Shown here piece by piece: positions 5,861-25,713 of a stretch of 64,000 nt of DNA. The stretch covers positions 24,553 to 88,552 of the forward strand of contig JAIPFF010000018.1 of assembly GCA_021736785.1 (NCBI GenBank), written 5' to 3'. The translations under genes were made by a program, and so were the position numbers. Within the stretch, counting starts at the first letter, position 1. Every line of letters starts with the position of its first letter. Origin of the DNA: Thiohalocapsa sp. (GTDB taxonomy: Bacteria; Pseudomonadota; Gammaproteobacteria; Chromatiales; Chromatiaceae). The notes under the pieces were generated by a model that was not told the origin of the DNA, did no database searches, and worked only from the letters and a program-made list of their open reading frames with translations.

Positions 5861-6642
5861 GTCGAGCCTACTTGATGGTGGGTGCTAAGATTTTGGTGGG
5901 TTATCGCTGGTTATTTTTCCGCCAGCGTCTCTAAGGTTACTTGCAGATTGGCGTGGGCGGAACGCTGGCACCGAACTCTCGGCGATCCGCCGCGCCGGCG
6001 CGCAGCGCTTTGGAACGATTCCGAGCAACCGAAAGCTGTTTTGAGTCGTTCGATCCGAATACGCTGGGGCGTGCATCGGTGCCCACCGCGGGGCTGGCTA
6101 ATGTTCAACGCGTCATCGTTATGCGACTAGCACTTACCATCGCCATCGTCGGCGGTTCCGTTTGCGTATCTTTACCCTTCTTTCAAGTTGCCGCTTGGCT
6201 GGGTGTTTTCGCGCTCTTGATCGTTTTGGCGGCGTGTATGGTCGTGGTTGGTATTCCGTCCGTGATTTTCGCCCCCGACGCGCGCTCGGCGAAACGATTC
6301 GGGCAATTTTGAGAATGATGTTCAGGATGGGCCGACTTAGCCGGCGGTTTGCAGGCGAGACGGTTCAAGCGCCGGCTCGACGCCGTTTTGCTCCGCAGGT
6401 CAATGACCGCTCCGCGGATTCGTCCGCGCCGGAGCAAACTTCTGCGATGACTATCCCTAACGGCCGAAAGATGCGAAGCCGCTCTGCCTGATGCTCTTGC
6501 GAGCCCCTGGCCTTACGCCCGAAACGCCGAGCGGTGGCGTACGATTATGCCATCTACGGCTCGGTCGTACGAAACAGTCGCCGATTCATGCCGCCGAAGC
6601 GGGAAGCACCCCCGCAGCGCGAACCGTGGAGTTCTGCACATT
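5861..6642. other. Non-coding or decayed stretch before the CRISPR trailer end
   Basis: About 780 bases without a strong gene. It contains one weak small membrane ORF (6121-6312, listed separately) and an inverted repeat with arms TTTGCTCC (about 6389) and GGAGCAAA (about 6431). Base composition is less GC-rich than the flanking genes near 6110-6310, suggesting foreign or decayed DNA. Confidence 0.4.
6121..6312 (+). CDS. Possible small two-helix membrane protein
   Basis: 63 residues with two hydrophobic segments (LALTIAIVGGSVCVSLPFF and WLGVFALLIVLAACMVVVG) and a basic C-terminus. There is no good ribosome binding site and I recognise no family. It may be a real small membrane protein of the accessory region or a chance ORF. 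Confidence 0.28.
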   Translation: MRLALTIAIVGGSVCVSLPFFQVAAWLGVFALLIVLAACMVVVGIPSVIFAPDARSAKRFGQF

Positions 6643-9600
6643 CGGTTCATCGCCGTATGCGCGGGGAACACCGCGTCGATGCAGACGACAAAGGCCGTTG
6701 TGATGGTTCATCCCCGCGGGCGCGGGGAACACCTCGTAGGATTCGGTGGAACGCGTTCCGATGCCGGTTCATCCCCGCGGGCGCGGGGAACACGGCCGAG
6801 TATCGCCGCGGCGGTAACTGTTTTGCGGTTCATCCCCGCGGGCGCGGGGAACACAGCCGTAGACCTGTTCCATGATAGTGCGCCTCCGGTTCATCCCCGC
6901 GGGCGCGGGGAACACGCCTGGTAAAGACCGATTGCAGTCGACAGTACCGGTTCATCCCCGCGGGCGCGGGGAACACGCAGCGAGCAGCCAGTTCTCGCGC
7001 GCCTGCAACGGTTCATCCCCGCGGGCGCGGGGAACACCGTAGCACGTGACGGACGCGGCGACGGGATAGCGGTTCATCCCCGCGGGCGCGGGGAACACCT
7101 CGGCGCCGGCACCCCCCTCGAGCTATCCGGCGGTTCATCCCCGCGGGCGCGGGGAACACCAAGAGACGGCAAAATAGGCCCGGTCAGATACGCGGTTCAT
7201 CCCCGCGGGCGCGGGGAACACTCGAGCAGGTCCACCGCAGCCTTGTTCCATGCCGGTTCATCCCCGCGGGCGCGGGGAACACGCGCCGGTGTCGCTCTCC
7301 GGCGGCATCGCCGACGGTTCATCCCCGCGGGCGCGGGGAACACTATCTCCGCCAACTTAGCCGTTATGCGGGTATCGGTTCATCCCCGCGGGCGCGGGGA
7401 ACACGTACCGGACCTTCTCCGGGTCTGTTGTTGTTGCGGTTCATCCCCGCGGGCGCGGGGAACACGCGCCACCCTCCTGCATACGCATTGCGCATCGCGG
7501 TTCATCCCCGCGGGCGCGGGGAACACGGCCCGTCCATTCCGAGCCCTGATCGCCCCAACGGTTCATCCCCGCGGGCGCGGGGAACACGGATTTGGTTGCG
7601 GTCATAGCGCGCGGACTGTCGGTTCATCCCCGCGGGCGCGGGGAACACGACGCTCAGCCGCCGCAATCGCGTGGCGCAATCGGTTCATTCCCGCGGGCGC
7701 GGGGAACACATCGATCGCTGATTTTCGTTCGAGGTTCGATGCGGTTCATCCCCGCGGGCGCGGGGAACACGATGAAAGGCGCTCGGCGTATGTATTGCGA
7801 CACGGTTCATCCCCGCGGGCGCGGGGAACACACGTGCTCCGCGAGCTGCTGTCGTGCGGTGCCCGGTTCATCCCCGCGGGCGCGGGGAACACGGTCAGGG
7901 CGAGCGAGCGCGTCCGATTGCAGTCGGTTCATCCCCGCGGGCGCGGGGAACACCGTGGCCGCGTGCTGGGTAAGGTTGATGATTGCGGTTCATCCCCGCG
8001 GGCGCGGGGAACACGCCTGAAGACGTTGGCGCTCTTGGCGCTCGTGCGGTTCATCCCCGCGGGCGCGGGGAACACAAACCGCGAAATACCGCCCTCGTCA
8101 TCGTCCACGGTTCATCCCCGCGGGCGCGGGGAACACTCAACAGCATCGTTTTCGGTCCGTCGATGTGGCGGTTCATCCCCGCGGGCGCGGGGAACACGCG
8201 GTGGTCGGCAGCTATGAAGTGGCGTGAACCGGTTCATCCCCGCGGGCGCGGGGAACACGTAGTCCGCGTCGTAGTGATCCGGGATCGGCCCGGTTCATCC
8301 CCGCGGGCGCGGGGAACACCTCTCGTTGCGCCTTCAACTGTTCAATGATCGCGGTTCATCCCCGCGGGCGCGGGGAACACTGGAATCCGGCGAGGTCACA
8401 GCCGATCGGCTGCGGTTCATCCCCGCGGGCGCGGGGAACACGGTGATCGCGATCGATCCGGACTGACTCGCGGCGGTTCATCCCCGCGGGCGCGGGGAAC
8501 ACCCTTTTTCCGCTGTTTGCACGCTTGCGTCTTGCGGTTCATCCCCGCGGGCGCGGGGAACACACCCCCATGTAAGCCTTGATTTGTTTTGCAACCGGTT
8601 CATCCCCGCGGGCGCGGGGAACACAAACGAACCAATGTCCGCCTATGTTCACGTATCGGTTCATCCCCGCGGGCGCGGGGAACACCTGTCATCCAGTGTG
8701 TCGGGGGGCGTTGCCTGCGGTTCATCCCCGCGGGCGCGGGGAACACTTCGCCCGTGATCGCGCACCTAAGAATCCATGCGGTTCATCCCCGCGGGCGCGG
8801 GGAACACGAATCCAATCCGGTCCGAAGTCATCTTTGCAGCTGGTTCATCCCCGCGGGCGCGGGGAACACGCCGCAAGAAAAGAGTCGCTGTCTTCCGCGA
8901 TCGGTTCATCCCCGCGGGCGCGGGGAACACGAGCCAGCGCGCGCCAGCAGTGTTTTGGCCACCGGTTCATCCCCGCGGGCGCGGGGAACACTCTTTGGCC
9001 GCGAGCGCGGTAACGGCCGCGGTCGGTTCATCCCCGCGGGCGCGGGGAACACATGTGTGGCAGTCGGCGGCAAGTATCGAGGGGCGGTTCATCCCCGCGG
9101 GCGCGGGGAACACGTAGTCGTAGCCGCCGAATTGGTTCCTCTTGCCGGTTCATCGCCGCGGGCGCGGGGAACACGCGGCTGGATGTCTCGCGAAACCGGG
9201 GAATGGCGGTTCATCCCCGCGGGCGCGGGGAACACTCCTTCGATCGAATGGTGCGGTTCGATGATGCCGGTTCATCCCCGCGGGCGCGGGGAACACTCTC
9301 GGTGCCATCGCGACGCATGCAGGTATCCCGGTTCATCCCCGCGGGCGCGGGGAACACTGCGCTGGCGTCTATATCACGGGATGCATCCGCGGTTCATCCC
9401 CGCGGGCGCGGGGAACACGAGCGACGGGGCCGTGGCATGAAGCAAGTCACCGGTTCATCCCCGCGGGCGCGGGGAACACCTCGCCCGGCGCCTGGAACAC
9501 TTGCTCCCAGGCGGTTCATCCCCGCGGGCGCGGGGAACACGGGCGCGTGGAATTCGGCGAATGGTCCAAGTGCGGTTCATCCCCGCGGGCGCGGGGAACA

Positions 9601-11128
9601 CACGGTCTTTCCGCTGGCCAGATATTCGGATGCCGGTTCATCCCCGCGGGCGCGGGGAACACGATTACCTGTCGGTCAGTCGTTGGTCCTCGGGCGGTTC
9701 ATCCCCGCGGGCGCGGGGAACACCCATCAGATTTGCACCTCCCCGCCGAATGCTTCGGTTCATCCCCGCGGGCGCGGGGAACACGATCACCTGTCCTTGT
9801 CCTTCGGCTGCCGCTGCGGTTCATCCCCGCGGGCGCGGGGAACACCGCCCGCGGCCGCACTCGCGGAAGCGAAGGTGCGGTTCATCCCCGCGGGCGCGGG
9901 GAACACGGTGGCGCGCGGTACGGGCGAATGGTTGCCGTCGGTTCATCCCCGCGGGCGCGGGGAACACGATTTAACACCCGCAGCGCAGGCCGGGTTTTTC
10001 GGTTCATCCCCGCGGGCGCGGGGAACACAGAATTGCGCCGAGGCGCGCAATTCGTCGTGGTGGTTCATCCCCGCGGGCGCGGGGAACACGTCGGTGCTGC
10101 CGAGGGCGCTGTTGTCGCAGCCGGTTCATCCCCGCGGGCGCGGGGAACACGCCATCGCGGCATGCGCGCGGGATGAAATAGCCGGTTCATCCCCGCGGGC
10201 GCGGGGAACACCGCCATCGACGCGGCCATCCCGGTGACGACGACGGTTCATCCCCGCGGGCGCGGGGAACACCAAATAGGCGTTGTGCCGCTCGATTGCG
10301 GTCCGCGGTTCATCCCCGCGGGCGCGGGGAACACCTTTTGCCCGATCCGGGCAGCCCGGTATACGCCGGTTCATCCCCGCGGGCGCGGGGAACACGGCAA
10401 GCTCGATGCCGTTACTGGGCTGTCCGACGGTTCATCCCCGCGGGCGCGGGGAACACCCACCGCCACCGCGCCGCCCAGGCGTAACCGGCGGTTCATCCCC
10501 GCGGGCGCGGGGAACACCGTAGCCGCGTACAGCGATGATGCCGCGTCCGCGGTTCATCCCCGCGGGCGCGGGGAACACTGCGCATTTCCGCCGAGGCGGG
10601 ATCTGTATTGCGGTTCATCCCCGCGGGCGCGGGGAACACTAGTGCGTCGGCACGAAAACGATTTGCCCCGCCGGTTCATCCCCGCGGGCGCGGGGAACAC
10701 GCTGTCGAGATTGGCAGCGAGTGCAAGAATTGCGGTTCATCCCCGCGGGCGCGGGGAACACGCGCGTCCACCCATTCAAGCACCATTTCGCGGCCGGTTC
10801 ATCCCCGCGGGCGCGGGGAACACACTTCTAGCGTTGATTCTCCCGCGTCCCAGAACGGTTCATCCCCGCGGGCGCGGGGAACACCGTCGACCATCGAAGC
10901 GTGCCATCCTCCATGACGGTTCATCCCCGCGGGCGCGGGGAACACTGATAACGCAGCGTCAGCGAAAACGGCGTCGTCGGTTCATCCCCGCGGGCGCGGG
11001 GAACACCGGGCCGACTTGATCGCTGTTGACGGGAATATCGGTTCATCCCCGCGGGCGCGGGGAACACGGCGCTGATTTCACGTCTGCCGGCGAAGCCATC
11101 GGTTCATCCCCGCGGGCGCGGGGAACAC
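6643..11128 (-). CRISPR. Type I-E CRISPR array, 74 repeats and 73 spacers
   Basis: 29-nt repeats occur every 61 nt. Read on the minus strand (direction of the leader and cas operon) each begins GTGTTCCCCGC, folds as stem CCCCGC, loop GCCC, stem GCGGGG, and ends with the 8-nt handle ATGAACCG. Spacers are 32 nt except four of 33 nt (7160-7192, 8808-8840, 10273-10305, 10762-10794). The leader-proximal repeat is 11100-11128. The trailer-end repeat (6643-6671) is degenerate, as expected for the oldest end. Variant repeats: 6704, 8841 and 10061 (outermost base T instead of C on the plus strand), 7681 (C to T) and 9146 (C to G). The length and near-perfect repeats indicate an active or recently active adaptation system. 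Confidence 0.99.
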
Positions 11129-11221: not shown

Positions 11222-12413
<1,192 letters not shown>

Positions 12414-12542: not shown

Positions 12543-13235
12543 TTACCCGGCGCGCTTAATAAGCATCAATCCGCATCCGAAGCCCTTTGCATGGCCGAGT
12601 CCGTTATGAAGAGATGAGACAAAGCGCTCCACATCCACTACTCTTAGTACGCCCTGGTAGTCGAGCGTGCTGAATTGGATCGCTTGGCGCTGCCCGCGTT
12701 TAACTAGCCGGTGTTGGCAATAGTTGTCCACTTGGAGTGTCTCCAGAGCGAAACCGTTGGTGGCTGCGCGCTCTTCAAGCCAACGCGGCCCCGCGTTCTG
12801 TACCAGCTGCGACTGGCTGGAGCGTTTTGTGGGATTCGCCTCCGCCGCTTGCTCCTGACGCTTCGCATGCATGATCACGTCGTCGCGGTAGCGACGCTTA
12901 TCATCCGGATCATCGCTTGCTTTGCGTGTGCGAACAGGGTTGGCCCGAAGTACGAAGCTTAGTCGCTGCCCCTCCGCCAACTTGGGTGCAAACGGCTTCG
13001 TCTGCACGGTCCAAGCGCCGTCCAACGTGGACGGTTCGCGCGGGGATAGCAAATAAAACACAGGCCAGTGGCCAAGTTGCTCGCGGCGAAACAAGAAGTC
13101 GCGAGGCTGCTCCGCGTTCGAAGCCATTAAGCGCCAGATGGCTTGGTGCTCAGCGTACGCGTTCTGAAAAATCGCATTTGCGAGGATTGCCGGTGGTTGT
13201 TCCCTGGCCAACTCGACCTTGCTCAAATACCACAT
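12543..13235 (-). CDS. cas6e: CRISPR pre-crRNA endoribonuclease Cas6e (CasE)
   Basis: 230 residues. The N-terminus MWYLSKVELAR and the C-terminal glycine-rich loop GLGHAKGFGCGLMLI are typical of Cas6e. It cuts pre-crRNA at the 3' base of each repeat hairpin, leaving the 8-nt AUGAACCG handle, and stays bound to the hairpin as part of Cascade. The same enzyme would be needed to process the mini-array RNA at 17657-17746, whose hairpins keep the required 6-bp stem. Two nucleotides separate it from cas5e. Confidence 0.95.
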   Translation of the reverse strand: MWYLSKVELAREQPPAILANAIFQNAYAEHQAIWRLMASNAEQPRDFLFRREQLGHWPVFYLLSPREPSTLDGAWTVQTKPFAPKLAEGQRLSFVLRANPVRTRKASDDPDDKRRYRDDVIMHAKRQEQAAEANPTKRSSQSQLVQNAGPRWLEERAATNGFALETLQVDNYCQHRLVKRGQRQAIQFSTLDYQGVLRVVDVERFVSSLHNGLGHAKGFGCGLMLIKRAG

Positions 13236-13237
13236 AC

Positions 13238-13987
13238 TCAGTCCCCTTCGCTGGCGGAATAGTGTTCGGTTCGCGGTGCAAACTGCCGGCGTGTTCTGGA
13301 CATTGGCTGGTCGTGCCTAGGAATCGACCGCGAGGGGCGCAATCCTGCCGGGACGCCGTCTTCCCAATAGATCCCTCGTTCGCGTGCTAGCCGAGCAAGA
13401 CCAAGTTCATCTAAAAAAGCTGCGCGTCCGTTGCCTGCATCCGTCTCATCGTAGTGGGCGATTGCGGCCACGACGGTGTGCGCCTCGATAAGGCGTGGCG
13501 ATAATGGGAATGCGGTGGGGCAGGATCTACGACCGAGGTAAGGGGCGAAGGTCGGTTTGAGCAGCGATGAGACGATGGTTTCCGCGGTCGCCCTGCTGTC
13601 GCGCATACGTTCATGCAGACATACAGTGTACAGACCGTCAGTGCGATAATCTCGAGTTGAAAGCGACGCTATACGATTGTGGGGATCAAGCAGTTCGTCT
13701 CTGCGTGTGTGCAAGTGCTTGAGCCGGGAAACGCTCTTCGGGTACTGGCTCGTGTGATAGTCCCGCAACGGTACGCCGCCGGACTGCACTCGGACGGCGA
13801 ACCCAAGGCTGTCGCGTAGCGCTTCATGAGCGTCGTCATCGGACCGCCGTATCCCTAATGCGGCAGCAACCAACCCCAATACAGCGGATTTGGATGGATG
13901 CGTCGCTGTCGGCCGTTGCTCGCCGACGGCAATGTCGCCCCAAGCCGCCAGCGGGCCGTAGAGTCTAAATACGATAAATCGTTCCAT
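13238..13987 (-). CDS. cas5e: Cascade subunit Cas5e (CasD)
   Basis: 249 residues from ATG at 13987; a TTG at 13996 overlapping the cas7e stop is an alternative. The N-terminus ERFIVFRLYGPLAAWGD and the SAVLGLVAAALGI segment are the usual Cas5e motifs. The subunit caps the 5' handle of crRNA and contacts Cas8e in the interference complex. Tightly packed between cas7e and cas6e. Confidence 0.95.
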   Translation of the reverse strand: MERFIVFRLYGPLAAWGDIAVGEQRPTATHPSKSAVLGLVAAALGIRRSDDDAHEALRDSLGFAVRVQSGGVPLRDYHTSQYPKSVSRLKHLHTRRDELLDPHNRIASLSTRDYRTDGLYTVCLHERMRDSRATAETIVSSLLKPTFAPYLGRRSCPTAFPLSPRLIEAHTVVAAIAHYDETDAGNGRAAFLDELGLARLARERGIYWEDGVPAGLRPSRSIPRHDQPMSRTRRQFAPRTEHYSASEGD

Positions 13988-13992
13988 CGCCG

Positions 13993-15030
13993 TCAATCCG
14001 TAATGAATGCGATCAGCTTTCGCAACGTTCCGGAGCCGTTGACGGCATCCATGATGCAGTGGTCATCGCTGCAGGCGCCATAGGCTGCATCCATCTTAGA
14101 GCGGGTGTCGGTGAGCCGCTCGATGGCTTCCGGCAGCATTCCGTGCCGGCCGTCGACTGACTTCAGAAAGGCAACCGACAGTGACCGCGGCTGCTGGTCG
14201 CCCTTTTCGGCCAAGATGTACGAGGCCCTTGCGCGAGAGGCGAAGCTGTTCTGTTTGCCGGTGGGGGCCACGGTAGCGGCGGCTTCGGTAAGAGCTGCAA
14301 GCGCTTTGTCCCGCAGGGAAAGATCGTTGCCGAGATTGTCCGCCAGGGATTCCCGGTCTATACAAAGGTAGAGATAGAAGAGTCCGGCAGCGAACTCGGT
14401 CTCGCCCATGTGCCCTGCGCCGACGTCTTCGATGCCCTCGTTCAGGTCGTCGACGGCGGTAAAGAAATCGTCCTCGACTGCAACTTTGTGCACCGTCACG
14501 GCGTGAGCCACTTGGGCCGCAGCGTCGGTATTGTAGCTGGGCGCTGCGGCTAGCATTCGCCCGAACAGGGCGATGTCCACGGCGCGGTGCTGGTGGCGCA
14601 GCAGGTTGAGCTCGTCTTCCGTCGGCGCTGATTTCCGCTCGATGAGTTGGTCTACCAAGGTATTGATCGCACTCAGTTCTTCCGGGCTGAAGTGAGCGAG
14701 TTGCTCGATCTCCACTGAGCCGGATTTCAGCTTACCGAACCGCTTCGCAATGGCGCCGGCCCATTCTGCTGCCTGCTTCTCGGAGACACCGGCAGCCAGA
14801 AGACGTTGCTGAATTCGTGTGCCTTCCTCCTTGGTACGTGTGCCGATGTGGCCGTCGAGTGCTGATTTGAAGCTGTCGGATGTGCGCCAAGCCCTTTTTA
14901 GGCTTTGAGAGGAGATCCGAAGTCTCTTTTCGCCTCCCATAACCGCGGTCTTGGGCCGACCGAGATCGTCCCTATTAAGATTCGCTGGCGGATAGGATGT
15001 CAACAGGTGTAGTTGGATAAAACGGGTCAT
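13993..15030 (-). CDS. cas7e: Cascade backbone subunit Cas7e (CasC)
   Basis: 345 residues. The start FIQLHLLTSYPPANLNRDDLG followed by KTAVMGGEKRLRISSQSLKRAWR is diagnostic of Cas7e. Six copies form the helical backbone that holds the guide and kinks out every sixth base of the guide. That property matters for the mini-array guide, whose mismatches include positions 6 and 18. It begins 2 nt after the cse2 stop. Confidence 0.97.
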   Translation of the reverse strand: MTRFIQLHLLTSYPPANLNRDDLGRPKTAVMGGEKRLRISSQSLKRAWRTSDSFKSALDGHIGTRTKEEGTRIQQRLLAAGVSEKQAAEWAGAIAKRFGKLKSGSVEIEQLAHFSPEELSAINTLVDQLIERKSAPTEDELNLLRHQHRAVDIALFGRMLAAAPSYNTDAAAQVAHAVTVHKVAVEDDFFTAVDDLNEGIEDVGAGHMGETEFAAGLFYLYLCIDRESLADNLGNDLSLRDKALAALTEAAATVAPTGKQNSFASRARASYILAEKGDQQPRSLSVAFLKSVDGRHGMLPEAIERLTDTRSKMDAAYGACSDDHCIMDAVNGSGTLRKLIAFITD

Positions 15031-15032
15031 GA

Positions 15033-15650
15033 TCAGGCTCCTTTTGCTCTGTCAAAGTTCTCGTGTTCCAGCAGCGCGCTATAGTAGTGGAATGTCCATT
15101 CCCGCCGAGGATGCCGCGGCAAATGCTCCCACGAAGGGTGGTCCCATTTGCGGATGCTATCGATAAGGTCTCGCACCGGCACACGGTCACCGGCAAGATG
15201 AATGATCCGAAGCAAGGCTGGATAAAGGTCATCGAGCTTTCGGATCTCCGCGAAACGCTGAAAGCGCAATTCGCTGACTCTGGGGCCGAAGCCGGGCTTT
15301 GTCGGCTTGGCCAGAAAAGCGCCAACGGAACGGGGGTCTTCGATGTCGCCCTTGACATGCGCCAACAGGCCGGCAACAGCAGCGATGCTGATGCGGTCGC
15401 TCCAGCCGGTGGGGCGAAGACGATAATGAAGCCGATGGTAGGCAGGCACGAATAAGACTTCTTCGAGAGTTTTGCAACGTCGCAACTCTGCGAGCTCTCC
15501 CCGGTTGCTAGGCTTGCCGGGCTCCGGCGGTGCGATCAATCTGTTCCACCATTTGTACGTCTCCCCCACGTGGTCTGGTTGGTTCTTGTTAGAGGCGGGC
15601 GGTTCCATCAGGTGCTCCTTGATCGTAGGATCAGCGTATTGGTCTGTCAT
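15033..15650 (-). CDS. cse2: Cascade small subunit Cse2/Cas11 (CasB)
   Basis: 205 residues from ATG at 15650 (a GTG at 15659 is also in frame). WWNRLIAPPEPGKPSNRGELAELRRCKTLEEVLFVPAYHRL and LRIIHLAGDRVPVR are typical of CasB. Two copies form the belly of Cascade and stabilise the displaced DNA strand. Between cas8e and cas7e as in other I-E operons. Confidence 0.94.
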   Translation of the reverse strand: MTDQYADPTIKEHLMEPPASNKNQPDHVGETYKWWNRLIAPPEPGKPSNRGELAELRRCKTLEEVLFVPAYHRLHYRLRPTGWSDRISIAAVAGLLAHVKGDIEDPRSVGAFLAKPTKPGFGPRVSELRFQRFAEIRKLDDLYPALLRIIHLAGDRVPVRDLIDSIRKWDHPSWEHLPRHPRREWTFHYYSALLEHENFDRAKGA

Positions 15651-15684
15651 CTGCTTCACCGGAAAGCCGCTTTGATTCGAAAAT

Positions 15685-17316
15685 TTACGCAGCCGCCGGA
15701 GGACTAGAAATGGCCCTGTCGGGTATCTCTAGTAAATCTTTGATCTTCTTGCTGTAATTGTATCGCAGCAGCGCGCGTCTGGCTTGCGCGATGCGGCGAG
15801 GATTGGATTGTTCGGTAATTTGGTTGTAGTCCACCCAGCGGTCGTAGGCTTTCTGGGTGTGCTCGTTCAGATACCGGTGCCATAGATGGCGCGCGGCGGT
15901 ACTCGCTGCAGTGGTATCGGCGGCGCCCGCGATCGCGTTTATTCGCTCGTAAAATACCGCTTCGGTTTCCTGCCAGAAAGCGTCTTTCACGTGTTCCAGC
16001 TTCGCTGACTTGTGGCGCGGGTCATTTGTAGCGAACCAAGCATCCTTAATGGCGCTGCGTAGATTGTAGAGAAATAACCCTGCTGCGTTCACCATGTCCT
16101 CGGCGGCGCTTTCCAGCGTGGTGCGGTGAATATCGCTGTAAACGCTGAATAACGGCAATGTCGACTCGAACCAGCACCTTGGTTTCATATTGTCCATGTC
16201 GTAGCCGAACGCCCACAGGCGATATCGTAAGCCCTCTCGGTTCAGCCGATGGGCATGAAACCGTTTGACGACGGCCGCTGGAAGGCGCTTGGCTTTTTTG
16301 TCACTCGTTTCCTGCATGAGACTTAACCAATGGCGATAGTTGATGCTACCGCGAGGGTGCATCGGGATTAAGTCTTTTCCGTCGTGGGTGTAGGGGCTCA
16401 ACGTGTGTGACCAGGCGCCGGTGTAGTTGATGCCATAGTTTTTAGTGCGATAACGGGAGATCAATGTGCATGAATGCGCGCCGGTAATCGCGCATTCACC
16501 ACCGGGTTCGGACTGGTCTAGGTCAAGCCGGATGCGGCGGGGCATGCCCCAGAACATCTGCAGCGGGTGCGCCGCTTCGGGCGTCGTAGGGTTCGCGCCT
16601 TTCTCGCTGGTCCGCGTCGGAGCGAGCCATGGAAAGATGCGTGCGGCATCGGATGGCTTGGTGGGGAATCCCAGCGTTTCTAGGGTTTCTTCATCGAGGA
16701 CATTTAACCAGAGCGTTTGCCAGAGCGTCGGTGGCCGCCGCTCGTCCTCGGGTGTTGCGATCACGAGCGTCGTCAGCGGTCCGCCGCCACGCAGGGAAGT
16801 CCGGTGCCCGACACCGCCTGACGGTGCATTGGTTTGTAAGGTGTAGAGGGCCATGGCAGCCGCCGCTAGGCTCATGCCCTGAGCGGGAAGGTCTTTCACA
16901 AAATGCGTCTCGCTGCCGGCGGTATCGATGAGCAACGCGGTGATCGGCAGAGGGGCTTGGCCCGATAACGGATCCTGATCTTGCATGAACCGTGGCCCGT
17001 CGCCGTCTAAGTCGAAGGCGTGCGCGTAAGCTGAAAATGCGTCTTGAAGCACCTCCGGGGTCGGCGCTGTGGCAAAGCGCTCGAACCATTCATCCGGGTC
17101 GCGGGGAGCAAATGCGGTCTGCAATAGACCGATCAGGAACTGCACCAGTGCGCCGTTGAAGTCAGGTCGCGGCGCGTCCAACGCTACGATTGGATTGGTG
17201 TCGATGGCGTCGGTTATTTGCCAGGGAGCGATGTTTTGCTGCTCTTTGGCCGGCGATAACCGCCGAATCGGGATCCATGGGGATGTCAGAAGGTTATGCG
17301 GCATGATCCTGTCCAT
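15685..17316 (-). CDS. cas8e: Cascade large subunit Cas8e (Cse1/CasA)
   Basis: About 543 residues. The N-terminus NLLTSPWIPIRR and the following ITDAIDTNPIVALDAPRPDFNGALVQFLIGLLQTAF match Cse1. It recognises the PAM (AAG-type in this family) and recruits Cas3. The start is ambiguous: TTG at 17322 (6 nt after TAGGAG), ATG at 17316 or ATG at 17304 are all in frame. The ribosome binding site lies inside a small upstream ORF (17294-17506). This gene heads the Cascade block and lies downstream of the mini-array target site at 17560-17594. Confidence 0.94.
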   Translation of the reverse strand: MDRIMPHNLLTSPWIPIRRLSPAKEQQNIAPWQITDAIDTNPIVALDAPRPDFNGALVQFLIGLLQTAFAPRDPDEWFERFATAPTPEVLQDAFSAYAHAFDLDGDGPRFMQDQDPLSGQAPLPITALLIDTAGSETHFVKDLPAQGMSLAAAAMALYTLQTNAPSGGVGHRTSLRGGGPLTTLVIATPEDERRPPTLWQTLWLNVLDEETLETLGFPTKPSDAARIFPWLAPTRTSEKGANPTTPEAAHPLQMFWGMPRRIRLDLDQSEPGGECAITGAHSCTLISRYRTKNYGINYTGAWSHTLSPYTHDGKDLIPMHPRGSINYRHWLSLMQETSDKKAKRLPAAVVKRFHAHRLNREGLRYRLWAFGYDMDNMKPRCWFESTLPLFSVYSDIHRTTLESAAEDMVNAAGLFLYNLRSAIKDAWFATNDPRHKSAKLEHVKDAFWQETEAVFYERINAIAGAADTTAASTAARHLWHRYLNEHTQKAYDRWVDYNQITEQSNPRRIAQARRALLRYNYSKKIKDLLEIPDRAISSPPAAA

Positions 17317-17506
17317 GGTCAAGGGTGTCTCCTAGCGGCAATCCGTCGTGGAACGGGTCGGCTTGCATCTCCAACTCCCTCACACGTTCTCGGAGGGCGA
17401 CCAACTCGTTGCGTTCCTCCCGGCGAAGCTCGGTTAGTTCGCTGAGGGTTATTTGGAGGGATTCTATTTTCTGCAGAATTTGATCTGTTCGTTTCGGTGT
17501 CGGCAT
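17294..17506 (-). CDS. Small coiled-coil protein between cas3 and cas8e
   Basis: 70 residues from ATG at 17506, ending inside the start of cas8e in another frame. The central part (ILQKIESLQITLSELTELRR and the following RVRELE segment) has a regular heptad pattern of Leu/Ile, indicating a coiled coil. No known Cas family is recognised and the ribosome binding site is weak. It is the first ORF after the crRNA-like target site (start 54 nt downstream of it), so it could be a leader peptide for translational coupling to cas8e or the product controlled by the mini-array. The heptad pattern favours real coding, but this is not certain. Confidence 0.45.
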   Translation of the reverse strand: MPTPKRTDQILQKIESLQITLSELTELRREERNELVALRERVRELEMQADPFHDGLPLGDTLDHGQDHAA

Positions 17507-17559
17507 TACGCTGTGCCTGTTGCTGTACCGGTATGCCAACGGTAGCGCTGTTCGGCGCG

Positions 17560-17594
17560 TGGGGAAAGTGGCCACCGACTGATGTAGAAAGCTT
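17560..17594 (-). promoter_or_regulatory. Putative Cascade autorepression target: AAG PAM plus partial protospacer
   Basis: On the minus strand, AAG (17594-17592) is followed by CTTTCTACATCAGTCGGTGG (17591-17572). This matches the first 20 bases of the mini-array guide at 17686-17705 at 16 positions: 1-5, 7-9, 12-17 and 19-20. Mismatches are at 6, 10, 11 and 18; positions 6 and 18 are flipped out in type I-E Cascade and tolerate mismatch. No similarity continues after 20. Partial seed-side matching of this kind supports binding without Cas3 cleavage. The site lies in the 5' region of the small ORF and cas8e, consistent with repression of the Cascade operon. Confidence 0.72.
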
Positions 17595-17656
17595 TGCTAT
17601 TCCTGCCGGGGCCGGTCAGCTCGAACGGTGCATTTGCCTTCGAGTGGTAGACTGCA

Positions 17657-17746
17657 AGCGTCCTGCAGCCTTGCGGGATGAACCGCTTTCGACACTAGTC
17701 GGCGGAACGCAGCTAACACGTTCCCCGCTGCTGCGGGGTAACAGGA
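17657..17746 (+). CRISPR. Antisense mini-CRISPR: degenerate repeat, 32-nt spacer, degenerate repeat
   Basis: The first pseudo-repeat (17657-17685) keeps stem CCTGCA (17662-17667), loop GCCT and TGCGGG (17672-17677), then the intact 8-nt handle ATGAACCG (17678-17685). Exactly 32 nt later the second pseudo-repeat (17718-17746) has GTTCCCCGC, loop TGCT (17729-17732), GCGGGG (17733-17738), but a diverged tail. Stem, loop and spacing geometry equal the main array although the sequence has drifted. It is on the plus strand, opposite to every cas gene, in the 269-bp gap between cas3 and the small ORF. Such two-repeat elements are known as CreR (guide repressing cas genes) or CreA (antitoxin RNA). 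Confidence 0.8.
17678..17738 (+). ncRNA. Predicted 61-nt crRNA-like RNA (CreR/CreA type)
   Basis: If Cas6e cuts both hairpins at the 3' base of their stems, the product is 8-nt handle (17678-17685), 32-nt guide (17686-17717) and 21-nt 3' hairpin segment (17718-17738), the exact size and layout of a type I-E crRNA. A possible -10 box TAGACT lies at 17648-17653, which would start transcription at the first pseudo-repeat; I see no good -35. A weak hairpin AGGGA/TCCCT at 17756-17775 could end the transcript. At its own locus the PAM position is CCG from the repeat, so self-cleavage would be avoided. Confidence 0.6.
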
Positions 17747-17775
17747 CGGCGCGACAGGGAGCGTCCGCAGTCCCT

Positions 17776-20490
17776 CTAGTCTTCGCGGATCCTCATTAGT
17801 CCAGTCATCGCGTCGTAGCAGAAGCATGTCGCACGGCCGCGAGCATCGATGCCTTCGCCGACCCATGAATCGCCCTCCGCAGGCCGTAGCGGCAAGAGTC
17901 GACTCCAGCGGCCCTTGTCGTAGACGGTTTCGAGGTAGTCGGAGATCGCTTGCCGGAGAGCCGGATCGGCGGGCTCCGCATCCGTGGCGAACCACGTCGC
18001 GCGGATCGTGACTTCGCTCATGGCCCATTCGAAATCTTCCTTTGAGCACCAAGGGGTCAACTTGCCGTCCTGCCAGCGCGCAAGACGAAGCCGTATGCTG
18101 GGATCGCCGAGTCTCGTTGGCGCGAGGATGTCGTCCCAAAAGTCCATGTCGGCGGCGTAGCCCTGCTCCAATGTCAGCGCATTGAAGCGCGCCATCGACT
18201 TGTCGTTCATCGAAGCGGCATCGGCGTCGGTGCTGGCCATTTCGATGTCGGTCGGTGCAGGTTGCGCCCTGTCGCCATAGACGCCTTCGATCAAGGGACG
18301 GGCACCCTCGGGCATGCAAATCGCTCCGTGCTCTCGGAGTAGTCGGGCCGTCCGCCAGAGGCAGCGAAGGTCCGGGTAGACCTTTCCGGTCTTGGGCAGC
18401 AGTGGTCCGAGCCAGTCTGCGTCCGCGTCCTCGGTGGGGTCCGGAGTCAGCACATGCAGGCACGGGGGCGAGCGGCGCTCTTGGTCTCGGCGCGCACCGG
18501 AGCGGTCCCGATGGTGGCGCTGCAGCCTGCCGGCCCGTTGGATGATTAGATCCATCGGCGCCAAGTCGGTGACCATGACATCGAAATCCAAATCGAGAGA
18601 TTGCTCGACCACTTGAGTTGCGATCAGAAGCCGACCCTGCCGTTGTTCGAGGCCGCTGGTCGGTCCGAAATTGGTCAGCACGCGTTCCTCGATTCGTAGC
18701 CGGTCGCCCAAGGCGAAGCGCGCATGAAACAGGTCGATCTTGTCCACCGGCACGTCGGCGGCTCGGAGCGCGCGCCATGCGGTGATGGCATCGTCGACGG
18801 TGTTGCGGACCCAGCACGCGCATTGGCCCTGTCGATGCGCATTCAGCAGGATGCCGATTGCTGCCGATTCCTCGCTGATTTGCTGGACGTCGACGCAACG
18901 AGCGATTTCCGGGCGGGCTGTAAGCGGGCATTCTTCCAGTCCGTTGCTATGGACCCGGGTCAGCATCGGGTAAGCATCGCTGGCTACGGCAGACGGTTCG
19001 GCCGAAAGCCCATTGCGGAACGCATTGATCAGCGCTTGGCGCATCGACTTGGGTAGGGTCGCCGAGAGCAGAATTGCATGCCCGCCGATGTAGGCCTGAA
19101 AGCGCAGCAAGGTCGCGAGGAGTGTTTGCATATATGCATCGTATGCGTGCACCTCGTCGACGATCAGTACCTTGCGCGCCAACCCCAGCAGCCTCAGGGA
19201 TTGGTGCCGACTGGGCAGAACGCCCAGCAAGGCTTGGTCGATATTGCCCACGCCCAGGTCCGCCAGCAGCGCCTTCTTTCTGTGATCGCCGAGCCAAGCT
19301 GCGCGAAGGTTGGCGGCGCTCGGCTCGCCGGCGGTGTAGTCGCCCTCTCGCGGGGCTTGCGGAAGCACTGCTTCTCGCGCTTCGGATTTCTTCATTAGCC
19401 GAGCCGCCGCATGGGTCAGCACAACGGCGGGCTCGCCCGCAAATAAGCGCTCGTGTAACCCCTGGTCGACGATACGCCGGTGCATTGCATTCGACGTCGC
19501 CATGGTGGGCAGTCCGAGGTAGATGCCGTCAGCTGCTCCGGTCATCTGGACACGATGCGCCAAGGTGAAGGCTGCCTCAGTCTTGCCGGAGCCGGTGATG
19601 TCTTCGAGGATGAAGAGCTGCGGGGAACTTGAGACTGGGATGTCCGCGGCAAGTTTCTGCAACGGCGTTGGTGTTTTGAGGTATCCGAACAGCTCTCGTT
19701 GACTCCGCGGAGATGCCGCGAGCGGCACCACGCCGCTCATCTCGATAGCCCGCCGAGCCCCTGGCAGCGCGTAGTCGCGCCAGTAGACGTCAATTGGCAT
19801 ATCGTGGGAGACGAGGCGGAATATCTCGGCATTCGAGCCGAGCCAATCGCATAACACCGCGACGCCGGCCAGCCACCAAGACAGACGCTTGAGCGTATGT
19901 TCTAGTGCCTTGGCGTCGTTGATTTCCAGCTGAACGCCGTCGAGGATCAGTTCCCCGGCGTCATTGCAGAACGCCGCGGCTGCGTGTTGATCGTCGGGCG
20001 TGAACTGGTCAGTGATCGGTCGCCCGTTCGGTGTGGCTGGCGGCTGCCCATGATGCCCCACGGCGGTGCCGATCCATGCACTCAGCGCCCGCCGCGTCGC
20101 TCTGCTCGTTGACGTCTCCGACACGAACTTCTTCAGAACGGACTCTTCCAGTACCTCGTACCAGAGCAGCAAGCCAAGGCTGTCGTGTCGCGGATGGTAG
20201 CGTTTGGCATCGGCGGGACTCTTTGCCAGGAACGGAAAATCCGGCCTCAGATTTTGGAATCGGTGGCCGAACTTGCCCCCGTCATGCAGTGCGAGCATGA
20301 AGGCTATCCAGCGCATAAGGGTCGTTTCGTCGAGGCCTAGGCGTGCCGCAAGCTCCTTCCTTAACGCGGTGTGGCGCTCAAGGAAGATCCAGCCGCATGC
20401 CGCCACATCAAGGGAATGATAGGGCAGCAGATGGAACGCTCCGTCATTGCCCGCTTTGCCCCAGTAACGGAAATACTGCTTTCCCATCAT
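17776..20490 (-). CDS. cas3: CRISPR-associated helicase/nuclease Cas3, type I-E
   Basis: About 904 residues from ATG at 20490, with GGGAGA 9 nt upstream; an ATG at 20529 lacks a ribosome binding site. The N-terminal HD nuclease has His25 (PYHSLDV) and the His69-Asp70 pair (LALHDGGKF). The SF2 helicase shows Walker A (ITGSGKTEAAF), DEVH (LIVDEVHAYD), SAT (LLSATLP) and motif VI (QRAGRLQRH). HD and helicase are fused in one chain, as in most I-E systems. Cas3 degrades DNA after Cascade recruits it to a fully matched target. It is first in the cas block and separated from cas8e by a regulatory gap. Confidence 0.97.
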   Translation of the reverse strand: MMGKQYFRYWGKAGNDGAFHLLPYHSLDVAACGWIFLERHTALRKELAARLGLDETTLMRWIAFMLALHDGGKFGHRFQNLRPDFPFLAKSPADAKRYHPRHDSLGLLLWYEVLEESVLKKFVSETSTSRATRRALSAWIGTAVGHHGQPPATPNGRPITDQFTPDDQHAAAAFCNDAGELILDGVQLEINDAKALEHTLKRLSWWLAGVAVLCDWLGSNAEIFRLVSHDMPIDVYWRDYALPGARRAIEMSGVVPLAASPRSQRELFGYLKTPTPLQKLAADIPVSSSPQLFILEDITGSGKTEAAFTLAHRVQMTGAADGIYLGLPTMATSNAMHRRIVDQGLHERLFAGEPAVVLTHAAARLMKKSEAREAVLPQAPREGDYTAGEPSAANLRAAWLGDHRKKALLADLGVGNIDQALLGVLPSRHQSLRLLGLARKVLIVDEVHAYDAYMQTLLATLLRFQAYIGGHAILLSATLPKSMRQALINAFRNGLSAEPSAVASDAYPMLTRVHSNGLEECPLTARPEIARCVDVQQISEESAAIGILLNAHRQGQCACWVRNTVDDAITAWRALRAADVPVDKIDLFHARFALGDRLRIEERVLTNFGPTSGLEQRQGRLLIATQVVEQSLDLDFDVMVTDLAPMDLIIQRAGRLQRHHRDRSGARRDQERRSPPCLHVLTPDPTEDADADWLGPLLPKTGKVYPDLRCLWRTARLLREHGAICMPEGARPLIEGVYGDRAQPAPTDIEMASTDADAASMNDKSMARFNALTLEQGYAADMDFWDDILAPTRLGDPSIRLRLARWQDGKLTPWCSKEDFEWAMSEVTIRATWFATDAEPADPALRQAISDYLETVYDKGRWSRLLPLRPAEGDSWVGEGIDARGRATCFCYDAMTGLMRIRED

Positions 20491-20837
20491 CTCGATCTTT
20501 CTCCCTGCCTGACCTCGATTGCAACACATAAAATGTACGCGGGGCGAGTATGGGATTTCCCCATGAGCTCGGCCAAGAGCAGCAGATTATGGCGGATGTG
20601 CTGACTCAAACGGTGATGCCGTGTCGGCGCTGGATTCGGCAGTACTGCACCTGTTAGTGCGATTCGTGCACGACGTTACGCGCAAATGGCGCGTGTACGC
20701 AAGCCGGAGACAATCGGATGGTTAAAGCCCTAAGAGGGCGCTTGGAAAGGCCGGAGTGCGGAATTTCGTGGAGTTGCAGTCTGGCCTAGCTCTAAGTTTC
20801 TGAAAACAAATCGCGATTCCACGGGATGGCGGAAGAG
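20491..20837 (-). other. Gap holding the cas3 promoter region
   Basis: 347 bases with no gene I can support. The AT-rich end near 20521-20540 probably belongs to the cas3 5' leader. I searched by eye for a second AAG-CTTTCNACA site that the mini-array guide could bind and found none here. Confidence 0.4.
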
Positions 20838-22535: not shown

Positions 22536-23414
22536 TCAATCGGGCTCGATCCGCAGCAACGATGGATCCGACCAGAGGCCGACGGTGTCCGGCAGGTAAT
22601 GGGCGACGCCTTCGAGGATGCCGGCGGAGTAGCAGCCGTTCATGCCGTGGAAGTCACCGCGGGCCTGGTAGAGCAGGTGGCCGAGGCCGGCGGTCTCGGC
22701 CAGCGCCGTGGCGTCGGCGCGGACGTCGGACGTGGCGTTGGCCACCAGCACGGCCTGCAGCGGGCCGGTGAGCATGGCCAGGTCGTTGCCGCTGTCGCCG
22801 GCGCATACCGTGCCTTCGTGGCTGAAGCCCTGGCGCGCCATCAGGAACTCGATGGCGTGCTGCTTGCTGGCGGCGGCCGGCAGCACGTCGAGCAGTCCGG
22901 TGCCGGTGTGCTCGTCCAGGCTCCAGATCAGGTTGGCGTCGATGCCCTGCGCGTCGAAGCGCTGCCCGATTTCGGCCAGCAGCGCGGGCCGGTCCCAGTC
23001 CTGCGGCGTGTAGTAGCTGAGCTTGAACGGCCCTTGCTTGGCAGGCTCCTGCAGCAGCAGTCCGTCGACGTCGTCGATCAGTGCGGCGAGGGCATCCGGC
23101 GTCTTTCCGCCCCAGCTCTCGCCGATGTGCTTCGCCCATTCGGGCCAGCGGGTCCAAGTGCCGTCCTGGATGCGATAGATGCTGGTGCCGACATCGCCGA
23201 TGAGGAACTCCGGCACCGGAATGTCGTATTCGGCAATGGCGTCCATGACCAGCTCGCGATGACGGCCCGTGACGTAGGCCACGCTGACGTTGGGCGCGGC
23301 GGCCAGCGCGCGGAATCGCGGGCGCGCCAGCGGTGATTCGGGCTGCGAGCCGTTCGGCAGCAGCGTGCGGTCGAGATCCGTGCAGATCAGAATGGGTTGT
23401 ATCGGCTCGGACAT
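22536..23414 (-). CDS. spp: Sucrose-phosphate phosphatase (HAD-IIB)
   Basis: 292 residues from ATG at 23414, preceded by GGGAGA at 7 nt. HAD motif I is intact (CTDLDRTLLPNG), motif II is YVTGRH, and motif IV is intact in CAGDSGNDLAML. It hydrolyses sucrose 6F-phosphate, made by the neighbouring synthase, to sucrose and phosphate. The intact motifs contrast with the altered ones in the C-terminal HAD domain of the synthase next door, so this gene is probably the true phosphatase. The pair is about 90 nt apart on the same strand and likely co-transcribed. Confidence 0.9.
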   Translation of the reverse strand: MSEPIQPILICTDLDRTLLPNGSQPESPLARPRFRALAAAPNVSVAYVTGRHRELVMDAIAEYDIPVPEFLIGDVGTSIYRIQDGTWTRWPEWAKHIGESWGGKTPDALAALIDDVDGLLLQEPAKQGPFKLSYYTPQDWDRPALLAEIGQRFDAQGIDANLIWSLDEHTGTGLLDVLPAAASKQHAIEFLMARQGFSHEGTVCAGDSGNDLAMLTGPLQAVLVANATSDVRADATALAETAGLGHLLYQARGDFHGMNGCYSAGILEGVAHYLPDTVGLWSDPSLLRIEPD

Positions 23415-23505
23415 TTTGGTGTCTCCCAAAGTGGCGTCCGGTTGTTGGCGGCAGGCGGGTTACGGCGCGTCGGGGCCCGGCCCGGGGTGCGCTGCAGGTT
23501 CCGCC

Positions 23506-25713
23506 TCAGGCCGCGCCGGGGCTGGATTTCGCGGGTCGCGGCATGGTGTCGCGGGCATGGCCGGGGTCCACCGGCACTTGGCAGGCATCGAAGAACCGAT
23601 AGTGGGCGATGGCCTCCAGGATGCCGGCGGCGAACGGCCTCTCGGCAAAGTAAATGCTCTCGGTGTCGGTCAGCTGCGAGAGCTCCTCGTTGTGGCGGTT
23701 GGCGACCACGACGGCCAGCGTGTTGCCCCGCATCATATCCTCGTCGGAGCCCGAGCCGCCGGCGGCCAGGCAGTGCTCGAGCGGGATGCCGTATTGGTCT
23801 GCCACGTAGCGCAGTGCCAGGCCCTTCGACGCGCGCGCGGGCACCACGTCCAGGAACTGGCCGAACGACAGGAACAGGTTCACGCTGAGGTCGGCCTGGT
23901 GCAGGATGCTGGAGATCTCCTCCAGGCAGGGCGCGTGCTCGGGATCGATATAGAAGCTGATTTTGAAGCGGCTCTGCTCCTTGCCCGGCTGGCGCTCGAT
24001 GCCGGGCAGGTCGGCCATCGCGTCGCGCACGCGGCGCGGGTACCAGAGATGGTCGATATGGCGCATCCAGGCATGGTCGGCGGTGAGCTGCGGTGCGTAG
24101 TAGATTTCGGTGCCGAGCGCGGTGATCAGTACGTCAGGACGGGGAATGCCGTAGCGGCGCATGATGCTCAGCGCCGAGTCGAGGCGCCGGCCCGTGGCGA
24201 TGCCGAAACTGGTGCAGCTTCGGTTCTCGCGCATGATGCGCACGAAGTCGGCCAAGGATTCCGGGTCGCCCAGCAGATTCTGGTCCAAATCGGTGAAAAT
24301 GGCCCGGTCGTGGTAGAGCATGGGCCGGCGCGTGACCGGCGCCCGCGGCGGCGGCTGCACGTCCGCGAGCAGCGGCGCGACCGCCGCCATATAGCTCTCG
24401 GCGTGCGCATGCCATGAGTAGTGCTCCGTTACGCCGTCGATGCCGTTTTTGGCCAGGCGCCGCCAGCGGGAGCGGTCGCTGATGACCTTGAGCAGCGCCT
24501 TGATGATGTCCTGTTTGTCGAGCGGGTCGATCAGGATACCGTTCTGGCAATGCTTGATGATGTCGATGGGCCCGCCGTCCTCTGTGGCGACGATGGGCAG
24601 ACCGCTGGCGGCGGCCTCGATCAGCGTCAGGCCGAAGGGCTCGGTGAGCGCCGGGTTGATGAACACGCCGCGCGACGCGGTCGCGATCTGATACAGCACC
24701 GGCACCTCGTCGGCGCGGTGGTGCTTGGGATAGGCGGCACGGCCGTAGAGGTCGTACAGGTCGATCAGCAGCAGCACGTCGGTGAGCACCTGCTGGGCGC
24801 CGCTGTCGAGCTCGTGAATGTCGTCGCGGTTGCCGGCGACGATGACCAGATTGGCCGCCTTCTGCAGTTCCGCGGACTCCCCGTAGGCCTCCACCAGCGT
24901 GGCGATGTTCTTGCGCTCGTCGGGCCGCGACAAGGCCAGGATGATGGGCTTGGCGGGCTCGCGCAGAAAACGCTCCAGCTCCTTTTTGATCGGCGCCTTC
25001 TGCTCGCTGCCGTCCGGCGGGTGGAAGCGGGTCAAGTCGGTGCCGGGGGGGATGACCGACATGCGCTCGGGCTGGTAATGGTCGTAGAGGCCGTATTGCT
25101 CTTCGATCTCTTGCGTGGTGCTGGTCACCACCAGACTCGCGGCGCCCAGGGTCTCTTCCTCGGCGTGGATGCGCCGGTCCATGTTGTAGCGCTCGTCGAT
25201 GCGCTCCTGCTTCACGCCCGAGGCCAGCAGCCTGCGCCGCTTCACGCGTCCGAGCGAGTGCCCGGTATGCACCAGTGGCACGCCGAGCTGCGCGGCGACG
25301 CGCAAGCCCACGTAGCCGGCGTCCGCATAATGGCTGTGGATCAGGCTCGGTAGCGGCGCGTGCTCGCGCAGGAAGCCCAACATGTTGTCGGAGAAGGCGT
25401 CGAGGTGATCCCAGAGCTGTTCCTTGGGCAGATACTCGGCAGGGCCGGCCTCGATGCGCACGATGCGCACGCCGTCGCCGATCTCTTCGATGGGGCGCGC
25501 ATAGTCGGTGCTGACGTGGGGGTCGTCCACCAGCCGCGTGAACAGGTCGACGCATGCCACGTCGTCGCGCTCGGCCAGCGCACGGGCCAGCTCGACCACA
25601 TACAGGGTCTGCCCGCCGGTATCCGCATCGCGCCCCAGCTCCAGGTCGCGGCCGCGGATCAGGCCGTGGACGCTGACGAGGACGATATAAGGGGTGCCGT
25701 TGTGTGCGGTCAT
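23506..25713 (-). CDS. sps: Sucrose-phosphate synthase, bidomain
   Basis: 735 residues. The N-terminal GT-B glycosyltransferase (about 1-460) has LVSVHGLIRGRDLELGRDADTGGQ (UDP-glucose/fructose 6-phosphate site), HSHYADAGYVG, HTGHSLGRVKR and the C-terminal TEPFGLTLIEAAASGLP. The C-terminal part (about 475-715) is a sucrose-phosphate phosphatase-like HAD domain. Its motif I reads TDLDQNLLGD and its motif IV GGSGSDEDM instead of GDSGND, so phosphatase activity is doubtful. The enzyme joins UDP-glucose and fructose 6-phosphate to sucrose 6F-phosphate in the cytoplasm; sucrose serves as compatible solute in many halotolerant bacteria. Confidence 0.94.
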   Translation of the reverse strand: MTAHNGTPYIVLVSVHGLIRGRDLELGRDADTGGQTLYVVELARALAERDDVACVDLFTRLVDDPHVSTDYARPIEEIGDGVRIVRIEAGPAEYLPKEQLWDHLDAFSDNMLGFLREHAPLPSLIHSHYADAGYVGLRVAAQLGVPLVHTGHSLGRVKRRRLLASGVKQERIDERYNMDRRIHAEEETLGAASLVVTSTTQEIEEQYGLYDHYQPERMSVIPPGTDLTRFHPPDGSEQKAPIKKELERFLREPAKPIILALSRPDERKNIATLVEAYGESAELQKAANLVIVAGNRDDIHELDSGAQQVLTDVLLLIDLYDLYGRAAYPKHHRADEVPVLYQIATASRGVFINPALTEPFGLTLIEAAASGLPIVATEDGGPIDIIKHCQNGILIDPLDKQDIIKALLKVISDRSRWRRLAKNGIDGVTEHYSWHAHAESYMAAVAPLLADVQPPPRAPVTRRPMLYHDRAIFTDLDQNLLGDPESLADFVRIMRENRSCTSFGIATGRRLDSALSIMRRYGIPRPDVLITALGTEIYYAPQLTADHAWMRHIDHLWYPRRVRDAMADLPGIERQPGKEQSRFKISFYIDPEHAPCLEEISSILHQADLSVNLFLSFGQFLDVVPARASKGLALRYVADQYGIPLEHCLAAGGSGSDEDMMRGNTLAVVVANRHNEELSQLTDTESIYFAERPFAAGILEAIAHYRFFDACQVPVDPGHARDTMPRPAKSSPGAA

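Follow-up and report, generated by a model that had tools for sequence, protein, structure and literature searches.

CreR, as summarized in a review (PMC12737573), is a crRNA-like RNA with a limited match to the cas promoter that mediates autorepression of the effector. In the type I-E CreTA system of C. rodentium (PMC12055562), the 495-bp gap between cas3 and casA carries an antisense CreA and a site beside a PAM, together with a 96-bp ORF that is translated into a toxin and repressed by Cascade. The haloarchaeal CreTA modules (PMC8501985 and PMC9458426) are of type I-B. They are found either upstream of the operon or in the space from cas6 to cas8, and their toxin is a very short RNA in which rare codons occur; CreA pairs at positions 1–5 and 7–11 (PMC8501985). 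In type I-B Haloarcula, crRNAs with spacers of at most 24 bp repressed transcription, and interference disappeared (PMC10989794). For E. coli, a review describes an anti-Pcas RNA of 150–200 nt whose promoter lies immediately downstream of cas3, and reports its significance as unknown (PMC7074321).

The locus described here lies in a window of 64,000 nucleotides (the whole stretch of DNA analysed), where a type I-E operon runs on the minus strand and a one-spacer mini-array occupies the plus strand between its cas3 and cas8e genes. The mini-array resembles the C. rodentium system in its position in the gap, in its opposite-strand guide and in the partial, PAM-adjacent match that precedes a small ORF; the repressor there is Cascade without Cas3 and the same is proposed for the window. 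The two differ in the PAM (ATG in C. rodentium, AAG in the window) and in the ORF, a 96-bp translated toxin in the one case and a 70-aa coiled-coil protein overlapping cas8e in the other, which are likened here by layout. No difference was found from CreR as the review presents it, the regulator of the window being a predicted one: degenerate repeats outside an array flank a single spacer, and a limited PAM-flanked match (16/20, AAG) lies upstream of the cas genes, the window having in addition a small ORF before cas8e. With CreTA it has in common a crRNA-like guide whose PAM-flanked partial match precedes a small ORF, and since the C. rodentium gap ORF is a translated, Cascade-repressed toxin (PMC12055562) the window could hold CreR, CreTA or both. 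The two degenerate repeats are also found in the haloarchaeal modules (PMC8501985, PMC9458426), and pairing at 1–5 and 7–11 is common to those modules (PMC8501985) and to units of the window's kind. The Haloarcula work shortened the spacer itself (PMC10989794), whereas in the window it is the match that is short. Classing the mini-array among the crRNA-like regulators of the CreR/CreA kind is well supported, and this kind is already known.

Layout of the locus

The assignment to type I-E follows from the presence of cas3, cas8e, cas11, cas7, cas5e, cas6e and cas1e together with a CRISPR array. The features of the window referred to below are as follows.

17776..20529, minus strand, cas3 (NCBIfam domain models above cut-off, full-length model below)
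17718..17746, plus strand, psi-R2, second degenerate repeat, stem CCCCGC-TGCT-GCGGGG
17686..17717, plus strand, spacer (guide), 32 nt; of its first 20 bases 16 match the target
17657..17685, plus strand, psi-R1, first degenerate repeat, stem CCTGCA-GCCT-TGCGGG, with 8-nt handle ATGAACCG
17648..17653, plus strand, predicted −10 of the mini-array, TGG-TAGACT, by eye
17592..17594, minus strand, AAG motif (PAM) 5′ of the target, read from the sequence
17572..17591, minus strand, target, protospacer-like strand, CTTTCTACATCAGTCGGTGG, 16/20 to the guide
17539..17567, minus strand, predicted weak promoter TTTCCC-17-TACCGT, by analogy with relative L002 (TTGACA-17-TAGGCT), whose distance from its AAG is nearly the same
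17294..17506, minus strand, small ORF of 70 aa, overlapping the cas8e start
15685..17316, minus strand, cas8e (cse1), TIGR02547; start probably ATG 17304 or 17316
15033..15659, minus strand, cas11 (cse2), NCBIfam model
13993..15030, minus strand, cas7 (cse4), NCBIfam model
13238..13996, minus strand, cas5e, NCBIfam model
12543..13235, minus strand, cas6e (cse3), NCBIfam model
11502..12413, minus strand, cas1e, NCBIfam model
6643..11128, minus strand, CRISPR array of 74 repeats and 73 spacers, repeats agreeing at 25/29 or more positions with GTGTTCCCCGCGCCCGCGGGGATGAACCG

psi-R1 and psi-R2 each share 17 of 29 positions with the local CRISPR repeat, each forms a stem-loop in the predicted fold, and the handle ahead of the guide is the last 8 bases of the local repeat (8/8). 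The length of the mini-array spacer, 32 nt, is also that of 69 of the 73 spacers in the main array. Inspection by eye upstream of the predicted −10 of the mini-array recognised no −35; at roughly the equivalent spot several relatives have TAAACT, TACACT or TATACT, likewise judged by eye. Near the CRISPR locus (2893–4644 and 22536–25713 of the window) lie genes which we take to resemble those of sucrose phosphorylase-type hydrolase, sucrose-phosphatase-like and sucrose-phosphate-synthase-like proteins.

Match between guide and target site

The first-pass annotation had placed the guide and its target on opposite strands next to AAG, with 16 of 20 bases agreeing and mismatches at positions 6, 10, 11 and 18, and on re-checking every one of these particulars was as given. 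AAG was adopted as the motif of this system from what is known of type I-E and from the relatives rather than from the targets of the genome's own spacers. Among all AAG-flanked sites in the 64-kb window this site is the best match to the guide, the runner-up reaching 12/20 (14/20 if no motif is required), and of 200,000 shuffled guides only one reached 16/20 beside AAG within the 363 nt that separate the guide from cas8e. In the window's own genome (5,205,988 bases) seven places fit the pattern AAGCTTTCNACANNAGTCGG with at most three mismatches, namely the target site with none, the guide itself with two and five others with three; as the reversed control pattern fitted 11 places, the three-mismatch hits are at chance level. 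The spacers of the main array gave no good match to 17501–17760, the best being 12/20 beside AAG. In the window the guide and its site form an inverted repeat with about 95 nt between its two arms.

Survey of related loci

A search with cas8e gave 80 named loci, in which the 900 nt ahead of cas8e were scanned for handle, stems and second repeat, units then being picked by eye (L030 and L041, with a score of 19, were taken; L025 with 22 and L027 with 23, the latter on the sense strand, were not). Antisense mini-arrays were found in 24 of the 80 loci in addition to the window, every one on the strand opposite cas8e, and these 25 units were chosen before sites were searched for by script. Another search, across 288 related genomes, detected cas8e in 36 of them; the upstream DNA of 30 loci, that of the window included, was scanned and yielded five more units whose guides were new (L108, L117, L118, L119 and L122), for which unit and site were displayed together. 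Loci that were the same DNA as others were excluded (L094, L100, L102, L103 and L104, equal to L002, L017, L019, L032 and L039), as were L110 (closely related to L044, whose guide it shares) and L120 (in like relation to L118). This left 30 type I-E loci with a mini-array, the window included, and their guides are distinct, 12 of 20 bases being the highest agreement between any two. Of the 56 loci in which no unit was picked, 43 have a longest upstream frame, the putative cas3, that stops no more than 100 nt from the cas8e match. Two of the loci, L003 and L004 (recorded Thiohalocapsa MAGs, the same DNA as L097 and L096), are from the same genus as the window and have a cas8e 65% identical to its own; there cas3 stands directly beside cas8e, with neither a cas3–cas8e gap nor a mini-array nor a small ORF. 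As L003 and L004 have neither of these last two elements, mini-array and small ORF can come or go as one unit. Sharing its genus with these MAGs, the window is probably DNA of a Thiohalocapsa-like purple sulfur bacterium.

The spacers of the first 25 mini-arrays fall into two length classes, 32–34 nt in 18 and 19–22 nt in seven (L002, L008, L028, L039, L044, L057 and L081).

Pairing between guides and sites

A matching site was found for 28 of the 30 units, flanked by AAG in 26 cases and by AAA in two; for L006 and L008 no convincing site lies between guide and cas8e. When no motif was imposed on the stretch from guide to cas8e in the first 25 loci, the best site had AAG in 21 and AAA in two (L019 and L053), and with another scoring applied to the whole 900 nt the top motif was AAG in 20, AAA in two and something else in three (L006, L008 and L017). 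The five added loci all have AAG, the weakest, L118, pairing only at 1–5 and 7–11 (10 of 15 scored positions). When guides were permuted among the 25 loci, the highest total in 20,000 permutations was 222, against a total of 319 with every guide at its own locus; a guide placed on foreign loci agreed at a mean of 6.8 of 15 positions with a maximum of 12.

Position-wise pairing was computed for the 28 loci that remained once L006 and L008, with no convincing site, had been dropped. Positions 1–5 are paired in all 28, positions 7–11 in 23–28 and positions 13–17 in 18–26, but it should be noted that these levels are partly selected because the choice of site scored just these positions. Position 6 is paired in four loci and position 12 in seven, both at chance, and position 18 in eight; these and the positions beyond 18 played no part in the choice. 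Past about 17–20 the pairing fades toward chance, positions 23–32 being paired in two to seven of 20–21 loci. The pairing across the 28 loci thus shows the 5+1 rhythm that is Cascade's own. The target strand varies, sense in six loci and antisense in 22, and the motif is always on the 5′ side of the guide. The pair in the window is among the weaker ones: it is the sole locus mismatched at position 10 (paired in 27 of 28) and is also mismatched at position 11, where 25 of 28 pair.

The first-pass annotation had called for an alignment of relatives in search of compensatory change between guide and site, and this was found: between the window and L002 both guide and site differ at seven positions (3, 7, 8, 9, 14, 17 and 19). 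The L002 site is on the same strand as that of the window and at nearly the same distance from its promoter. Covariation across 30 mini-arrays with distinct guides strongly supports the earlier proposal of a crRNA-like guide aimed upstream of the operon.

Promoter of the cas8e operon

A scan of 17290–17800 for a consensus promoter found none. In L002 a promoter (TTGACA-17-TAGGCT) begins 3 nt after the 20-nt site, and the weak promoter predicted for the window is drawn by analogy with it. In a matrix scan, 17 of the 28 loci had a best-scored promoter overlapping the stretch made up of motif and 32-nt target, and for this reason the site is probably at the promoter; in six loci (L028, L030, L032, L039, L081 and L118) the −35 box of the best-scored promoter starts inside the complement of AAG. 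In the window the best-scored promoter by the same scan does not overlap the site. By analogy with the relatives the target there may also be at the operon promoter, which is only weakly recognisable in the window itself.

Small ORFs ahead of cas8e

The 70-aa product of the window's small ORF is predicted to form a single long helix (residues 4–49, mean pLDDT 79.6). Family models gave no match above curated cut-offs for the small ORFs, this one included, and a large protein search found only the window's own protein, as the one hit among five candidates. Similar coiled-coil proteins, 20–32% identical to that of the window, are encoded at the same place in L002, L005, L007 and L008. Among 288 genomes, a set not shown to include those of L005, L007 and L008, strong matches to this family occur only at this place in the window genome and in G167 (the genome of L002); one extra match in the window's own genome (E 0.003) lies inside a 319-aa frame.

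From these comparisons the 30 mini-array loci could be divided into three groups. Coiled-coil ORFs lie between site and cas8e in five, hydrophobic ORFs in 15 and no small ORF of either type in ten, the grouping of the 20 being our own and the hydrophobic set having been assigned largely by eye. The hydrophobic ORFs, of about 33–68 aa, comprise at least two sequence groups: those of L015, L018, L019, L030 and L032 are alike, as are those of L049, L061, L068, L070, L081 and L117, with L118 and L119 similar to the latter by eye, and those of L017 and L057 stand apart from both. Profiles of the two groups matched almost only their own members, missing the member L061, with weak extras in L057 (E 0.015), L118 (0.32) and L120 (0.47). 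An automatic count found a hydrophobic ORF ending near cas8e in 10 of 30 loci against 0.45 expected in shuffles, although the hydrophobicity cut-off was set after some of the peptides had been seen and the L032 ORF counted is in a different frame from the grouped L032 peptide. By the same measure the gap of the window has no hydrophobic ORF, and holds the coiled-coil family instead. The hydrophobic lead ORFs of the 15 loci are candidates for Cascade-repressed peptides. A literature search, with most subscription journals outside it, found neither a CreR of E. coli nor hydrophobic lead peptides beyond the C. rodentium toxin ORF; newness is not claimed.

In L054 a peptide of the second hydrophobic group stands ahead of cas8e in a stretch where the scan found no mini-array.

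Proposed mechanism and alternative explanations

We consider it very probable that the mini-array RNA guides Cascade to the site, where it likely blocks transcription of the small ORF and cas8e without cutting the DNA. The mini-array would be transcribed from a promoter just upstream of psi-R1, its RNA would be processed by Cas6e to a product of about 61 nt, beginning AUGAACCG CUUUCGACAC, and this would be loaded into Cascade and brought to a place over or beside the operon promoter. As pairing stops by about position 20, recruitment of Cas3 would be expected to fail, giving binding without cleavage. The most likely target of the regulator is the promoter of the small ORF and cas8e, and by analogy with CreR (PMC12737573) we infer that their transcript is repressed. 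Speaking against this model are the comparative weakness of the window's pair, the failure to find a consensus promoter in 17290–17800 or a best-scored one overlapping the site, the two loci of the same genus that lack both gap and mini-array, the two units (L006 and L008) with no convincing site, and the derivation of AAG from other type I-E systems. Repression would lift if Cascade were drawn off by an abundance of crRNAs, inactivated by an anti-CRISPR or eliminated by mutation, and the first gene to be freed would be the 70-aa ORF; because of this place a toxin-guarding role of the CreTA kind on top of autorepression is possible. The first-pass annotation had allowed for a CreTA-like variant, and this has gained weight because the ORF in the C. 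rodentium cas3–casA gap is a translated toxin (PMC12055562).

Taken by itself, the idea that the unit is a CreTA-type addiction module, in which the 70-aa ORF is the toxin and the mini-array RNA the antitoxin guide, so that loss of Cascade releases the toxin, seems to us on the unlikely side. It draws on the like layout in C. rodentium (PMC12055562), on the presence of a small ORF between site and cas8e in two-thirds of the mini-array loci (20/30), on the excess of hydrophobic ORFs in the automatic count (10/30 against 0.45 in shuffles) and on a coiled-coil family whose strong matches among 288 genomes are confined to this place and G167. However, the ORF of the window is not hydrophobic but a predicted helix with no family match above cut-off, ten of the 30 loci do without a small ORF of either type, and the count itself used a cut-off chosen after peptides had been seen and a differing frame in L032. 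Addiction and autorepression can nevertheless both hold, because the ORF overlaps cas8e and Cascade would be released along with it.

A decaying relic, in which guide and site formerly worked and now bind Cascade poorly, we consider decidedly improbable: mismatches at 10 and 11 are indeed rare among the 28 loci and both flanking repeats are degenerate, but degeneration of the repeats is usual for such units (PMC9458426), and the stems, the handle, the 32-nt spacing, the motif and positions 1–5, 7–9 and 12–17 are intact. Far less probable again is chance similarity, or an inverted repeat that serves as a hairpin or protein-binding dyad. The inverted arrangement of guide and site in the window is what such a dyad would call for, yet the pair is a direct repeat in 22 of the 28 loci, shuffling matched it once in 200,000, and AAG and the 5+1 rhythm would be left unexplained; on the shuffles and the direct repeats the chance and hairpin readings were set aside.

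The cas3–casA gap of E. coli K-12

One of the surveyed loci (L082) is E. coli K-12 MG1655 2878000–2887000, with a cas3–casA gap of 414 nt at 6140–6553 of this stretch. On the antisense strand the gap carries a stem CCCTAC-TTAA-GTAGGG (psi-R1), a perfect handle ATAAACCG and a guide, which matches an AAG site ahead of casA at 14 of 20 positions (mismatches at 6, 9 and 17–20); shuffled guides did as well in 62 of 50,000 cases. The anti-Pcas locus (PMC7074321) is like the window in having a psi-R1, a handle and an AAG site, and in an RNA promoter adjacent to cas3, which in the window is a predicted one, although its second repeat is barely recognisable, unlike psi-R2 of the window. Judged from the sequences, a guide–site pair of this kind would place the anti-Pcas transcript among RNAs like CreR and CreA. 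The similar K-12 arrangement and the C. rodentium layout (PMC12055562) also back the view that a crRNA-like guide in the window is aimed upstream of its operon.

Covariation of guide and site among loci with dissimilar guides indicates, whichever single genome is considered, that Cascade operons are commonly controlled by an RNA guide in the type I-E loci of Gammaproteobacteria and of some further groups. A broader reading, which we offer tentatively as possible but doubtful, is that many type I-E operons, that of E. coli K-12 included, are self-policing units in which an antisense guide holds the promoter of first a toxin-like ORF and then Cascade, the window representing a variant whose lead gene encodes an undescribed coiled-coil protein of 70 aa and the anti-Pcas RNA being such a guide. 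If that were true, a drop in active Cascade would set free the poison together with its cure, both from a single transcript, so that cells which rebuild Cascade would recover and others would be arrested. The layout joins autorepression (CreR) and toxin guarding (CreTA), gives the E. coli anti-Pcas transcript a testable identity and makes the lead ORF families concrete genes for study.

At least 80% of the K-12 stretch is present in 1,104 of 5,426 E. coli genomes. Two variants of it were read. Their guides keep the first 11 positions and depart from K-12 at position 12 and past position 19, and the site is altered at position 17.

An unannotated GTG-start ORF of 39 aa, with a hydrophobic stretch near its N-terminus, occupies 6136–6255 (minus strand) of L082; its stop overlaps the casA start, the same place as that of the small lead ORFs of the relatives.
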